Below are positions 2,998-41,374 of a stretch of 64,000 nucleotides of DNA, in pieces (within the stretch, counting starts at the first letter, position 1; every line of letters starts with the position of its first letter). The position numbers were made by a program, and so were the translations under genes. The notes below the pieces were generated by a model. That model worked only from the letters and a program-made list of their open reading frames with translations. It did no database searches and was not told where the DNA came from. Location of the stretch: positions 24,931 through 88,930 of IMG/VR virus record IMGVR_UViG_3300011116_001123; one strand, given 5' to 3'. The DNA comes from a virus.

Positions 2998-4017
2998 TTA
3001 ATTTAAAAATACTTGAGATTCGAAGTTTCTACGTTTCGATAAACCAGGATAATATTGACCTGTCTGTGCTCCGGTGGTTGGACCTTGTGCGATGTAAGCT
3101 GCTGCAGCTTCCATATCTCCATCTACGATTGCATTTTTTATATTTTTCCCGTAATCCCTAGCAGTGAAAACATACGGACCAGCATTATAACTGAAACTTA
3201 ATAACGCGGCTTTTTGAGAGTCATTTAATTTTTCCCAGTTCAAGGGTCCAAGTTGGCTGGCAACGATTGGAGCGAAAGTATTTTTTAATTGATAGTCCAA
3301 AGTTTCTTCAGCTTCCTCAAGCGTCCAAGTGGTTTTGGGTGTCACATCGACCAACTTACCACCGACTAATTTTTTGGATGTTCCATACCCACCTCTATAT
3401 GTACCTTCATCATCTGAAGCTGTGTCACTGAACGTTTCAAATTTTCTGATGAGTTGCTTTGTCATTTCCAACCAATCACCCGATAAAGAAATATTGATAT
3501 TTCCGACTAACGGGTCTATTAATTTTTCTAAATCTTCAGAGTCGATATTTTTTTCTTTAAGAAGTTCAATCATCTTAAGTAACATTTCTTCTGAGGCTTT
3601 TGTCGGACCTACTTCTGATGATTCCTCAGATGAAGTTGAACTATCATCTTTTTCGACATGGTCATTAGTAAATTCTTCAACAGCTTCGGCAGTTTCAGGT
3701 CCAAACAACCCATCGACACCATGAATTGGTAAATCATATCCAAGAATAATCAAACCAACCTGCATTGATTCAACTTCTTTTTTGAAATTGTAACTACCTC
3801 GTTCTTGTTGAGATATTCCACCATCCTGAGCGGCAGTTTCCAATGTATCGAAAAATTCATCCACATCGACTCCAATTAAATCAGCTTTGGTTGGATCATC
3901 ATCTTTTTTGTAGCCAACGTCTTTCAAAAATCGGTCAATAAATTCTTGTTCAACAATTTGACTACCATACATCATGGAATGCATTCTGTGCAATTCCTCA
4001 GTCAATGATTTTTTCAT
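2998..4017 (-). CDS. Tagged peptidoglycan-binding lysozyme (GH24-like), 339 aa
   Basis: Three parts are visible: an N-terminal tag ending QIVEQ (residue 24); a PG_binding_1-like module at about 80-125 with the typical 'GLFGPETAEAVEEF' ending; and a T4-lysozyme-like GH24 domain from about 185, with 'RKFETF' supplying the likely catalytic Glu, 'YRGGYGTS' matching the GYGT loop and 'DSQKAALLSFSYNAGPYVF' matching the family's conserved helix. GH24 enzymes cut the MurNAc-GlcNAc bond. Tag plus cell-wall module suggests a virion-carried muralytic enzyme for DNA entry rather than the main endolysin. Preceded by an RTATTTAT motif at 4 nt. Confidence 0.8.
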   Translation of the reverse strand: MKKSLTEELHRMHSMMYGSQIVEQEFIDRFLKDVGYKKDDDPTKADLIGVDVDEFFDTLETAAQDGGISQQERGSYNFKKEVESMQVGLIILGYDLPIHGVDGLFGPETAEAVEEFTNDHVEKDDSSTSSEESSEVGPTKASEEMLLKMIELLKEKNIDSEDLEKLIDPLVGNINISLSGDWLEMTKQLIRKFETFSDTASDDEGTYRGGYGTSKKLVGGKLVDVTPKTTWTLEEAEETLDYQLKNTFAPIVASQLGPLNWEKLNDSQKAALLSFSYNAGPYVFTARDYGKNIKNAIVDGDMEAAAAYIAQGPTTGAQTGQYYPGLSKRRNFESQVFLN

Positions 4018-4021
4018 ATCA

Positions 4022-4028
4022 ATAAATA
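4022..4028 (-). promoter_or_regulatory. RTATTTAT late-type promoter motif (short spacer)
   Basis: ATATTTAT on the minus strand, 4 nt before the ATG of the tagged lysozyme. Confidence 0.55.
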
Positions 4029-4993: not shown

Positions 4994-6223
4994 TTACTTA
5001 TACAGTACAAAATTATTTTTTTTATCTTTCAAATCAATGACTTGAAACTCGGTGGGGGTTATGGGATAGACAAGATAATCGACAGCATCCTTATATTTTT
5101 TCGATTCAAACCTTTTTGCATCTGATTCGGAGGATTTGACTTGAATTGTTACGGCATCCTTACCTCTTCCCATAATCAAGTCCACAAAAAAATTCATATC
5201 AATAAAGTTTCCGTTGCCTCCACGATATAAAACATTGTATCCAAGTTTTTCAAAAGCATTGGCGACATCAGATTCCATTTGGTCTCCCAACTTGGAAAAT
5301 TTAGTGGTATACTTGGTAAAGTTCATTAAATCCTTTTTATCTTCCAAATATTTTTCGAACAAGTCCTTGAAGTTGTCTTTATATTTTAGTAGGATATTTT
5401 TGATTACTTCGGAATCCGAAGCTGTAGATATTGTGTCGAGAATGCTTTTAGCTGCAGTACTTCCATTACTTTTAGCCTTCTCCAAATAAGTTGACAATAA
5501 ATCAGATATGTCAGAATAGTTGGTGTTCAACTTATTAACATAATGCCATTTACCATTCGGATTTAAATTACCTTCATCATCAACGTACACCAATTTTTTT
5601 CTATTTAAGTTTCTTACAAAATAGTCATATTGTTTGTCGTTAATTTTACCATATGAATTTAATATTTTGGCACCTTTGAGATTGTCTTTAATATCATCTT
5701 GTTGAATATCAAATTTGATATCCGATAAAATATCATCAACCACTTTACGAAGGTTCAACCCTTCATTAGATTCCAACCAAGCCCCCAAAGAATTTAATTT
5801 GTTATATACATTACCACCCAACACCTTGGAGATATTCCCACTCAGTTTTTCTTCTTCCTGACGGGAAATGATTTTATCTACAACCTCTCTATTCCTGTTT
5901 TGATATCCAATACATCCAGTTGGGACTTGTAAACCACCAAATTTGGTTATGGTCATGCTTTTGCAGGCATATGAGCTCATATCCAACTCAATAACATCCT
6001 CACCCAATTTGATTTCCAAATATCCCTTATTCCCATACAATTGTGATAAATCATTGGAAGTCAATTTACCTTCTCCTCCATCAATGACAACAGGATTGTT
6101 CACATAGTAATAATTACCCTTTGAACCCAACGAACTACCTTTGATGGTCGCAATATTCACACCAGTCTGAATGACCTCAAGCAAATGATTTAACTGACCT
6201 TCTGAAATGATGAAGTTTCTCAT
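4994..6223 (-). CDS. Tagged protein with C-terminal PD-(D/E)XK nuclease-like domain, 409 aa
   Basis: I chose the ATG at 6223 because it gives the tag 'MRNFIISEGQLNHLLEV' and sits 6 nt after an RTATTTAT motif. The last ~100 residues look like a PD-(D/E)XK endonuclease: Glu ~317 in a helix (QMESDVANAFEKLGY), Asp ~348 (FFVDLIM) and Lys ~363 (TIQVKSS), the E...D...QxK order found in resolvase/restriction-like folds. Residues 30-130 hold a beta-rich region with two cysteines; the middle is helical. A nuclease behind a capsid-targeting tag could be an injected anti-host or anti-competitor enzyme; that role is inference. Confidence 0.65.
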   Translation of the reverse strand: MRNFIISEGQLNHLLEVIQTGVNIATIKGSSLGSKGNYYYVNNPVVIDGGEGKLTSNDLSQLYGNKGYLEIKLGEDVIELDMSSYACKSMTITKFGGLQVPTGCIGYQNRNREVVDKIISRQEEEKLSGNISKVLGGNVYNKLNSLGAWLESNEGLNLRKVVDDILSDIKFDIQQDDIKDNLKGAKILNSYGKINDKQYDYFVRNLNRKKLVYVDDEGNLNPNGKWHYVNKLNTNYSDISDLLSTYLEKAKSNGSTAAKSILDTISTASDSEVIKNILLKYKDNFKDLFEKYLEDKKDLMNFTKYTTKFSKLGDQMESDVANAFEKLGYNVLYRGGNGNFIDMNFFVDLIMGRGKDAVTIQVKSSESDAKRFESKKYKDAVDYLVYPITPTEFQVIDLKDKKNNFVLYK

Positions 6224-9213: not shown

Positions 9214-10458
9214 TTACGCGAGATTTTTATCTGTAGTGTTGGGCTTTCCCATAGCGATAGAATTACTGAAATTCAAAAAGTCTGCCAACGTTTTTTTACT
9301 ATATATCCACTGAGATAAGAAAATCCGCAAGTCAGAATCAATATTCGTTTTTCCGTTGACTGAATTAATTATCATCTCTTTTGTAATTTTCTGGTCTGGT
9401 TTCAATTTAAAATAACGTCTAATTTCAGACAAAGTTGACATAACTTCATTTGGGTTTCTGAGGTGAACCTCATCATTTTTGAGTCGCCATAAATAAGTGT
9501 CGGAAATTTTACTTGACGCATTTTCATCAAACCCTTGTGTCATTAGGAATTTTTTCAATCTCTGAAAATTGGTTTCAGGTGTACCACTCGTATCGTCTCC
9601 TAAAAACTTTTTTATTACCCAATCATCAAATTTATTGGATTCATAAGGATGGAATTTATGATAATCATCTAGAATATGTTGAATCTCATGAATCATAAAT
9701 GACAATGCTTCATTTTCACTATAATCATTAGCCACCCTACAATTTATGTTTATAGGCACATCATACCCATTAATAAAAAGGCCTGGTCTTACCCATCCAC
9801 CCGCGATATCATCACTTATAACATATTCGATTGGTATTTGTGATAGTATCTTATTATATTCGGCAAAATGTTTCTCGACCGTGCTTTTATCGTATTTGAA
9901 TGATTTAGCAAACCTATCTTTAGTCGATGGATGGTTCAACCAATTTCTCCACCAATCAGTCGCTTTTTTTAGTAAATCAGAATTATATTTAGATTTACAA
10001 CGATAAAAAATTTCATTTTGTTTTTTTATTTCATCTCCCTCCACCGTGCCTACACGAACAAAAGGTATGTTAATCGATTTAAGAACAGGAGCCTTACCTG
10101 GAATTGTATAAACAAAAGTCAAATTTCCTGTAAAACTTCCTTCTCCTACTGATTGATTAAAATCCAGTGTAATAAAATCTACCTGCTTTGATAGGATTTG
10201 TTTTGAATACTTTTTTTCTCCATCAAAATATTCGAAAATTGGGGAACTTTTTTCAATGTTCACAATTATCGGAGAGATATTATTTTTATTATGAATTGAA
10301 ATTTTTCCAGATTTTTTTGGAAGTATGTAAGCTCCACTTTTAGGGTCCACACCATAAGCAACAATCAAAATATTATTATCAGAAAACAAAACTTTGTCCT
10401 CAGACTGTTCATTTAATACCACCCGATTGTATTGACTCTCTGTAATCAAAATATTCAT
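9214..10458 (-). CDS. Tagged HExxH zinc metallopeptidase-like protein, 414 aa
   Basis: The tag 'MNILITESQYNRVVLNEQ' predicts cleavage after Glu17. Residues 250-271 contain 'SFMIHEIQHILDDYHKFH', an HEIQH zinc-binding helix (His257, Glu258, His261); the third ligand is not identified. Residues 20-140 look like a beta-sandwich region. With its RTATTTAT motif 4 nt upstream it belongs to the tagged set, so I infer a virion-carried protease. Alternatives are a structural protein with a degenerate peptidase fold. Confidence 0.65.
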   Translation of the reverse strand: MNILITESQYNRVVLNEQSEDKVLFSDNNILIVAYGVDPKSGAYILPKKSGKISIHNKNNISPIIVNIEKSSPIFEYFDGEKKYSKQILSKQVDFITLDFNQSVGEGSFTGNLTFVYTIPGKAPVLKSINIPFVRVGTVEGDEIKKQNEIFYRCKSKYNSDLLKKATDWWRNWLNHPSTKDRFAKSFKYDKSTVEKHFAEYNKILSQIPIEYVISDDIAGGWVRPGLFINGYDVPININCRVANDYSENEALSFMIHEIQHILDDYHKFHPYESNKFDDWVIKKFLGDDTSGTPETNFQRLKKFLMTQGFDENASSKISDTYLWRLKNDEVHLRNPNEVMSTLSEIRRYFKLKPDQKITKEMIINSVNGKTNIDSDLRIFLSQWIYSKKTLADFLNFSNSIAMGKPNTTDKNLA

Positions 10459-10462
10459 AACA

Positions 10463-10469
10463 ATAAATA
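10463..10469 (-). promoter_or_regulatory. RTATTTAT late-type promoter motif (short spacer)
   Basis: GTATTTAT on the minus strand, 4 nt before the ATG at 10458. Confidence 0.55.
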
Positions 10470-32509: not shown

Positions 32510-32552
32510 ATCTTCGTCGTTTGTTTTACAAATATAGTAAACTCCCACAATA

Positions 32553-32587
32553 ATAAAAAAAAATCCCCCACTTTTTTTTAGTAGGGG
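32553..32587 (-). terminator. Rho-independent terminator (second of two)
   Basis: CCCCTAC pairs with GTGGGGG around an A-rich loop; a T9 run follows on the minus strand. It backs up the terminator of the ncRNA candidate upstream. Confidence 0.7.
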
Positions 32588-32593
32588 TGAGAG

Positions 32594-32731
32594 AAAAAAA
32601 AAGTCCCACAAACTCCTTCTCTCTCGAACTCTCATTTGTGGGACAAATGTTTCACGAATGTAACAATTCTCTTTTTCAAAATCGAATTGTAGTGAAACTT
32701 TTTGTGGGGGTGTTGAATCTCTCGATTCAGT
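32594..32731 (-). ncRNA. Candidate structured non-coding RNA, about 138 nt
   Basis: This gap has no convincing gene but is rich in base pairing on the minus strand. Hairpin 1: TGAATC-GAGA-GATTCA (32714-32729), a GNRA tetraloop. Hairpin 2: GTTTCAC/GTGAAAC (32692-32698 with 32649-32655) enclosing CAATTC/GAATTG. Hairpin 3: a 10-bp stem GTCCCACAAA/TTTGTGGGAC (32603-32612 with 32635-32644) followed by nine T residues. A TATTTAT motif lies just before hairpin 1. Ends are estimated; no known RNA family recognised. Confidence 0.55.
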
Positions 32732-32734
32732 TAT

Positions 32735-32741
32735 ATAAATA
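32735..32741 (-). promoter_or_regulatory. TATTTAT motif upstream of the ncRNA candidate
   Basis: TATTTAT on the minus strand, a few nt before hairpin 1. No start codon follows at the usual spacing, so the motif here would act on an RNA, which argues that it is a promoter rather than a translation signal. Confidence 0.45.
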
Positions 32742-33186: not shown

Positions 33187-33193
33187 TATTTAT
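33187..33193 (+). promoter_or_regulatory. RTATTTAT late-type promoter motif (short spacer)
   Basis: GTATTTAT, 4 nt before the ATG at 33198. Confidence 0.55.
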
Positions 33194-33197
33194 AATT

Positions 33198-33545
33198 ATG
33201 GATGTTTCAATAAATAATCACAGATTCGAAGTTATTACTCTTTTGGACCCACGTTCCCAACAAATTGGAATGATGGGTAAAAGATTTTCCCATATCAAAC
33301 AAGGTATGTTATTTTTGATGGGAGGTAAAGAACAATGTTTTTGGATGAAAAACTGTATTGTACCTTTAGACATTATTATAATAAAAAATAATGTCATTGT
33401 CAACATCCATCATGATTGTCCTCCTTGTCTTCAAGAGGATTGTCCAACTTATTGTGGTAACGGTAATATTGTATTGGAATTACGTGGTGGAGCTTGTCAA
33501 AAGTTGGATATCAAACCTGGAGACACAGTTAATTATCTGCTTTAG
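33198..33545 (+). CDS. DUF192 family protein, 115 aa
   Basis: The family signatures are present: 'RSQQIGMMGKRF' near the start, 'GMLFLM', then 'CFWMKNCIVPLDIIII' (MKNTxIPLDxxF-like), and 'VLELRGGACQKLDIKPGDTV' (the ELxxGxxxxxxIxxGDxV end). A 'CPPCLQEDCPTYC' insert adds five cysteines, possibly binding metal. DUF192 function is unknown. No signal peptide is seen, unlike many bacterial members. Confidence 0.85.
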   Translation: MDVSINNHRFEVITLLDPRSQQIGMMGKRFSHIKQGMLFLMGGKEQCFWMKNCIVPLDIIIIKNNVIVNIHHDCPPCLQEDCPTYCGNGNIVLELRGGACQKLDIKPGDTVNYLL

Positions 33546-40367: not shown

Positions 40368-40374
40368 TATTTAT
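40368..40374 (+). promoter_or_regulatory. RTATTTAT late-type promoter motif (short spacer)
   Basis: GTATTTAT directly after the terminator's T-run and 4 nt before the ATG at 40379; the clearest terminator-motif-start arrangement in the window. Confidence 0.6.
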
Positions 40375-40378
40375 TAAT

Positions 40379-41374
40379 ATGAATTTTCAAAAGATAATTG
40401 ACGACTTCAATGATGGTGAGTTTGACGCCGAACTTTTTTTCGGTGATTGGAACACATTTTTTACCATTTTGGACAAAAGAGGTTTTATTAACCAAATTGA
40501 TATCGAGAATACAGAGGTACAAAACGCATTGTTGATTTGGCTTCATGGTAGAGACCGTAAAAGGTTCCTCGAATTTGTTGAAGATAAATTGTCAGATATT
40601 ATCGTTGATGAAAATGGTGTAGTTTATTTGGATTTGGATGACAGGTCTGAGTTATCAAATTTTTTCTGTGAAAGTTCCCGTAATGGACTTTCGAAAGGAT
40701 ATGTTGAAGATGTTCTATCTGGAGAAAATGACCTTTACCTTTACGACCGCACGACTAATAGTGTCTATCGGGATGTAATCTACGGACTGAATCCAAAAAA
40801 TATGGAATACTTAAGAAAACGTGTCTTCGAAATCCTTAAGGACCAAAAAATAGAAACTGAGACTATCCAATTAGAAGATATTGCTAAAGAACAAGGTCAT
40901 CCCGAATACGTGACAGTTGATAATCCTACAACAGCACAGACTATCATAGACGATGAAGAGTCAATGAATTACCTTTTGGAAACTCATCTTGAAGAGTTGA
41001 ATGACCAATTAATGTCCATTCACAATGATGCTTATAACCAAGCATATGAAAGTGAACTTTATAAAAGCATTTTCAATGAATTACAAGAGTATATAAACGG
41101 TAATGGTGAATATTATTCAAAACCTCACCGTTTCAAAAAAGATACAATGACTCAACGATTTAGAGTTCCTGTTGCATCAAACTTTGACGAAGTAATTTTA
41201 GACTATTTAATTTCGAACAAAAATCGAGGATCTCGTGGATTATTAGAATATTGGGGTGAGTACATACCATTGGTTCAAGATGAACAAGATTGTTTGAAAG
41301 TATATCCACCAGATTATCCTGACTTTAGAGAGGTCGAGAATAATATTAATGAAATTTTCACAGATTACCTGTAA
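40379..41374 (+). CDS. Hypothetical protein, 331 aa
   Basis: Not recognised. Acidic, mixed alpha/beta; 'IIDDFNDGEFDAELFFGDWNTFF' and 'PVASNFDEVILDYLISNKNRGSRGLLEYWGEYIP' look like conserved segments. No tag. Its isolated promoter suggests single-gene expression. Confidence 0.6.
   Translation: MNFQKIIDDFNDGEFDAELFFGDWNTFFTILDKRGFINQIDIENTEVQNALLIWLHGRDRKRFLEFVEDKLSDIIVDENGVVYLDLDDRSELSNFFCESSRNGLSKGYVEDVLSGENDLYLYDRTTNSVYRDVIYGLNPKNMEYLRKRVFEILKDQKIETETIQLEDIAKEQGHPEYVTVDNPTTAQTIIDDEESMNYLLETHLEELNDQLMSIHNDAYNQAYESELYKSIFNELQEYINGNGEYYSKPHRFKKDTMTQRFRVPVASNFDEVILDYLISNKNRGSRGLLEYWGEYIPLVQDEQDCLKVYPPDYPDFREVENNINEIFTDYL

Follow-up and report, generated by a model that had tools for sequence, protein, structure and literature searches.

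A three-hairpin RNA family upstream of tRNA-Met and GOLLD in phages, with host-type promoter sequences nested in its hairpins

The question raised by this locus is whether a phage intergenic region without a recognizable gene encodes an RNA, and what such an RNA might do. The stretch of viral DNA analyzed (referred to as the window; 64,000 nucleotides (nt), positions 24,931-88,930 of IMGVR_UViG_3300011116_001123; all element coordinates are window positions) contains the element on its minus strand between the stop codon of a nudix gene (32762) and the ATG of a hypothetical gene (32509), both encoded on the minus strand. A sequence-only reading had seen no credible gene at 32553-32741 and had proposed a structured noncoding RNA. 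In agreement, no conserved open reading frame (ORF) was found in the element: relatives show indels of 1-2 nt inside it, and the overlapping ORFs are merely mechanical. The predicted RNA has a length of approximately 137 nt and comprises three hairpins (H1, H2, and H3); including the preceding TATTTAT motif and the T9 tract at its end, the element spans 32594-32741 (minus strand, Table 1). The hairpins noticed earlier, a GNRA-capped stem after TATTTAT, a nested stem, and a 10-base-pair (bp) stem with T9, were all located on the minus strand in an order kept in 49 copies, and the second terminator said to follow was found as a hairpin with its own T-run.

The fold energy of a 208 nt region gave a z-score of -4.83 and that of the predicted 137-nt RNA alone -4.29, with no equally stable shuffled sequence in either case; the predicted RNA folded into three separate hairpins. 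Relatives were identified by searches with the two neighboring proteins (nudix and hypothetical) and a 20-base motif, giving dozens of viral contigs, and diverged loci were added by a search with a 16-base GOLLD motif (L-numbers such as L003 and L004 are labels of related viral contig loci). The related phage contigs contained 49 distinct copies with the common order TATTTAT - H1 - ACA[CT]CCC - H2 - H3. A covariance model (R1) built from 34 copies matched 32594-32741 (minus) with 138.7 bits and an E-value of 7.5e-25, the window sequence being itself part of the training set (via L086). R1 found further copies, and diverged members also scored high. Among the related records checked, including contigs of 326 kb and 317 kb, each one that carries the RNA holds one full-length copy; weaker partial matches of R1 represent H2-like modules near GOLLD. 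Within the clade of the window, hardly any variation was seen in the linker and H1.

Across the family, H1 stems occurred in 13 different versions among the 49 copies, with pairing retained and a GNRA loop in 44 of them. In 24 distinct compressed sequences, 96.9% of the cells were paired, and 56 double-changed cells were counted, a number that none of 500 shuffles reached (15.3 ± 3.2); slid controls gave 17 or fewer. For the nested part of H2, 12 distinct GAGA-capped stems gave nine double-changed cells versus 1.7 in shuffles, and double changes of H3 among relatives included GTCTCAC/GTGAGAC and GTCCTAC/GTAGGAC. Inner stems capped by a GNRA loop were present in H2 of 26/49 copies (1.1 in shuffles) and in H3 of 44/49 copies (2.8 in shuffles). 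The structured RNA put forward by the sequence-only reading thus stands, as compensatory changes in homologous loci were found in every stem of the three-hairpin family: H1, the outer and inner parts of H2, and H3.

Searches of Rfam 15, both with the gathering cut-off and with permissive E-values, revealed only chance-level matches for the window element, the best weak one being to the trpB motif (23.9 bits versus a cut-off of 59, E = 0.29). The diverged member L035 had no Rfam match near any cut-off, and no DNA homologs of the window region were found among cultured phages. Because of the conserved order, the compensatory changes, and the lack of an Rfam match, the three-hairpin RNA is a real and previously uncatalogued structured RNA family, with no counterpart in the literature searched.

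In relatives, H3 is followed by the boxA-like AGTTCTTT, a tRNA-Met(CAT), in many cases GOLLD (matches in, e.g., L019 and L034), and then the same final terminator; the second terminator of the window corresponds to this closing element of the tRNA/GOLLD unit. The location of GOLLD next to tRNA-Met has been described before, as has its assembly into a 14-mer RNA cage without known function (PMC12286853). The setting, phage tRNA/GOLLD islands, is familiar, and the unusual part is the overlap of hairpins with promoters. Like GOLLD (RF02032), which in relatives lies downstream of both tRNA-Met and the three-hairpin RNA, the latter is a phage-encoded structured RNA of the same island, but it is located upstream, separate, and unrelated in sequence. 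Stable small RNAs next to phage tRNA genes, such as RNA C and RNA D of T4, are a possible parallel, being small structured RNAs in a phage tRNA locus, but differ in host phylum and layout.

No GOLLD match above the gathering score was found in the window or in the whole 88.9 kb record, and this record, itself a fragment, contains no confident tRNA. In an alignment with the close, tRNA-bearing L004, all of the sequence that separates the T-run of H3 from the T-rich stretch ahead of the final terminator is missing in the window. Within the RNA, the two differ only in the H2 loop and in the length of an A-run, no change being seen in H1, the linker, H3, or either arm of H2, and CAATTC/GAATTG pairs better in the window. 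In the window, tRNA-Met and GOLLD appear to have been lost through a deletion between T-tracts, with the hairpin RNA retained. L018 shows the same type of loss, and L010 and L015 have no tRNA and kept the later hairpins. In the 326 kb contig (L003, approximately 5300-6000), the position of tRNA-Met, between the RNA and the gene downstream of it, is taken by an HNH endonuclease gene; like the window, L018, L010, and L015, this locus has no tRNA there and retains the RNA. The sequence-only reading had missed that the unit forms the 5' portion of a tRNA-Met/GOLLD island of which the rest is absent in the window, and that H2 is also a promoter site in most relatives.

Promoters of Bacteroidota have the consensus TTTG / TAnnTTTG (PMC6847099, PMC7366714). 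A full TTTG-N19-21-TAnnTTTG was present in H2 of 41/49 members versus 0.024 expected in shuffles, with the -7 box of this promoter (P2) extending into the 3' arm of H2 in relatives; the H3 loop likewise holds a host-type promoter in 15/49. These sequences resemble Bacteroidota sigma-ABfr promoters, but the copies of the relatives lie inside covarying hairpins, and that of the window is off consensus. Since H2 of the window reads TTCG-N20-TACATTCG and fails the sigma-ABfr consensus, P2 has probably been lost here, with the H2 stem intact; judged by their boxes, both putative nested promoters (H2 and H3) are decayed or absent in the window. No clear link between the losses of P2 and tRNA was observed, as L010, L015, and L063 have no tRNA yet kept P2. 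In these phages, inverted repeats flanked 34% of RNA-type promoters versus 6.4% when arms were swapped between promoters, and 6% versus 2.8% of other promoters. Perfect inverted repeats of 8-13 bp with differing arms were seen around host-type promoters before tRNA and GOLLD, e.g., at L151 ~4007, L096 455, L116 6116, and L118 10740 (listed strand).

The hosts are most likely Bacteroidota because distant relatives of the neighboring DHH protein sit in phages of 635-642 kb, a size class predicted to infect Bacteroidetes (PMC7162821). The exact GOLLD 16-mer occurs in bacterial genomes mostly on contigs of Actinomycetes and Proteobacteria and was not used for host inference.

The TATTTAT motif by itself showed a mild enrichment in the window (50 versus 33.4). 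The pattern TATTTATNNNNATG occurred 13 times versus 0.63 expected (e.g., at 4015-4028, 10456-10469, 33187-33200, and 40368-40381), and 27, 24, and 23 times in relatives of 326, 317, and 321 kb, respectively, versus 1-2 for reversed-pattern controls; in a distant 635 kb phage, no clear enrichment of it was observed. Phage-wide, TATTTAT is placed 4 nt before ATG. A -10-like box would occupy this position in near-leaderless messages, which suggests that such mRNAs arise from a phage-specific promoter. Each of the 49 family members has the motif 11-15 nt before H1, including seven whose collection did not depend on it. Its strand specificity, fixed distance to starts, and genome-wide enrichment are those of a candidate phage promoter, and the spacing before H1, which agrees with transcription starting at H1 or immediately ahead of it, favors a role in transcription over one in translation. 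The sequence-only reading had argued for such a role from the position of the motif away from a start codon and had seen a complete promoter-RNA-terminator unit; both views gain from the invariable order of the motif and the noncoding RNA, and in the window the predicted unit closes with H3 and T9. H3 resembles intrinsic terminators by its GC-rich stem of 10-11 bp directly before T9 (T6-T9 in the window's clade), which makes it a candidate terminator by sequence; it differs from them by its large loop (~22 nt), which is promoter-bearing in some relatives, and by the missing T-run in one group of relatives.

Two further pairings were considered and rejected. The linker CCCCCAC was predicted to pair with GTGGGGG of the second terminator in the window, but relatives read GTAGGGG; an alternative hairpin CATTTG-TCCCA-CAAATG, conceivable as an antiterminator, is disrupted in L014 and missing from L034.

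On balance, we consider the RNA to be probably the 5' leader and insulator of the tRNA-Met/GOLLD island of jumbo Bacteroidota phages, present in the window as a stand-alone survivor. Structure, conservation, order, and deletion are observed; start and end of transcription, promoter activity, and the insulating role are what we infer, as follows. A phage-specific TATTTAT signal (P1) would start the RNA approximately 4-5 nt downstream, placing H1 at the 5' end. The transcript would fold into hairpins, mostly GNRA-capped, and be terminated by H3 and the U-run. In relatives, the H2 loop, and in some also the H3 loop, would provide a host-sigma promoter starting within the 3' arm. Transcripts from such a nested promoter would not contain the 5' arm, could not form the respective hairpin, and could read past the boxA-like site to include tRNA-Met and GOLLD. 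As they would escape the hairpin while P1 transcripts stop, the hairpins may shield the tRNA/GOLLD unit from upstream transcription driven by P1. With tRNA/GOLLD deleted and P2 decayed, only the self-terminating RNA would be left in the window. More tentatively, this arrangement may represent a new control design, in which the loop of a GNRA-capped, covarying hairpin contains a promoter, upstream transcripts are stopped or processed, nested starts are immune, and two tandem units insulate the tRNA-Met/GOLLD island.

Several points weigh against the leader and insulator explanation. The stem arms in alignment A3 were picked by a script maximizing pairing, which introduces a bias favoring structure. 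This bias is partly answered by a locus-level shuffle control, in which the mean H1 stem was 4.78 bp versus 1.46 ± 0.37 bp in shuffled loops, and by an alignment made from sequence alone, in which outer H2 pairs formed in 32-34 and H3 pairs in 33-34 of 34 sequences. With its large loop, H3 is no textbook terminator and was overlooked by a simple terminator scan that did not list it; because L095, L096, and L150 have no T-run after H3, termination at this position is not general. Likeness to the E. coli motif is the sole basis of the boxA label, and the palindromes that flank promoters may also serve as operators for proteins.

Among the alternatives, we regard as unlikely, though deserving attention, that the family is a trans-acting phage small RNA, whose H1 loop, ACAYCCC linker, or GNRA loops make contact with another RNA or a protein, and that the proximity to tRNA and GOLLD reflects clustering of RNA genes rather than control in cis. 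Such a role can still be entertained because the RNA outlives its neighbors in several phages, being intact where tRNA and GOLLD were lost (window, L018, L010, L015, and L063); the single full-length copy per genome and the near-invariant linker and H1 of the window's clade also fit. However, all diverged copies with a visible neighborhood lie directly upstream of tRNA/GOLLD, as expected of a cis leader, and the promoters inside H2 and H3 of relatives are hard to explain by a function in trans.

That the window carries a decaying remnant without present function after the loss of tRNA-Met and GOLLD is improbable. The mutated P2 boxes and the missing tRNA and boxA fit decay, but the differences from L004 spare all parts other than the H2 loop and the A-run, the inner H2 stem pairs better than in L004, and the RNA is retained in at least four tRNA-less loci. 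Even less credible is the view that there is no functional RNA and that the inverted repeats act at the DNA level, as operators or cruciforms flanking the tRNA/GOLLD promoters, with the window holding their remains: the complete promoter between the H2 arms of most relatives and the above-control bracketing of RNA-type promoters would suit it, but H1 is promoter-free and variable in sequence with pairing and GNRA loop kept, the promoter spacer carries a covarying GNRA hairpin, the stem is retained where the promoter was lost (window, L018, and L034), and the arms vary within one genome, so that no single protein would read them.

The three-hairpin RNA gives the GOLLD islands of jumbo phages a defined 5' unit and a natural set of phages without tRNA and GOLLD in which the hairpin RNA was kept. 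It also exposes promoters within covarying hairpins and a phage-specific TATTTAT start motif that seemingly yields near-leaderless messages.

Table 1. Features of the three-hairpin RNA locus in window coordinates.
Feature	Position	Strand	Basis or remark
P1 TATTTAT start motif, within TATATTTATA	32735-32741	minus	Phage-specific promoter-like element; predicted transcript start ~32730
H1, 6-bp hairpin TGAATC-GAGA-GATTCA with GNRA tetraloop	32714-32729	minus	Stem variants, covariation, shuffle control
Conserved unpaired linker ACACCCCCAC (family form ACA[CT]CCC)	32704-32713	minus	Comparison of relatives
H2, outer stem GTTTCAC/GTGAAAC with nested stem inside	32649-32698	minus	Pairing in alignment of relatives
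H2 inner stem CAATTC/GAATTG	32684-32689/32664-32669	minus	Inner GNRA-capped stem covaries in relatives
Putative decayed promoter P2 within H2, TTCG-N20-TACATTCG	32655-32686	minus	Most relatives: TTTG-N20-TAnnTTTG
H3, 10-11 bp GC-rich hairpin GTCCCACAAA/TTTGTGGGAC	32603-32644	minus	RNAfold; pairing and double changes in relatives
T9 tract after H3, predicted transcript end	32594-32602	minus	T6 to T9 across the window's clade
Apparent deletion scar; relatives have boxA-like AGTTCTT, tRNA-Met, and some GOLLD here	32588-32602	minus	Alignment with L004 and L018
Second intrinsic-terminator-like hairpin CCCCTACT...AGTGGGG, then own T-run	32566-32587	minus	Terminator scan; conserved in relatives
Host-type -7 box TATATTTG of downstream hypothetical gene, outside the RNA (next unit)	32518-32536	minus	

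The H2 loop of the window's clade (columns 103-140 of alignment A1) occurs as two unrelated alleles with swapped flanks (e.g., L055 and L088), which suggests that recombination took place within a hairpin of 50 nt; both alleles retained the promoter consensus in most copies. A reading of the H2 repeat as an invertible, phase-variable promoter was rejected, as by inspection the two alleles are not reverse complements.

The islands of relatives contained additional elements. Between the boxA-like motif and tRNA-Met, CCCGCTGGTACAACCAGCGCATGACGTGGATAGGTGACCGTGGGG marks a further apparently structured element (L035 after 2221, L100, L107, L141, and L163); L034 also has a version, at which no match came up when L034 was scanned against Rfam at the gathering cut-off. 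After the tRNA of L012, L020, and L141, a short element with a conserved center, closed by GTGAGTTAG...CTAACTCAC, replaces or precedes GOLLD. Outside the element, a perfect E. coli-type TTGACA-17-TATAAT is located at 33375-33403 (minus) of the window, antisense within a DUF192 gene, and is probably a chance match in an AT-rich genome.
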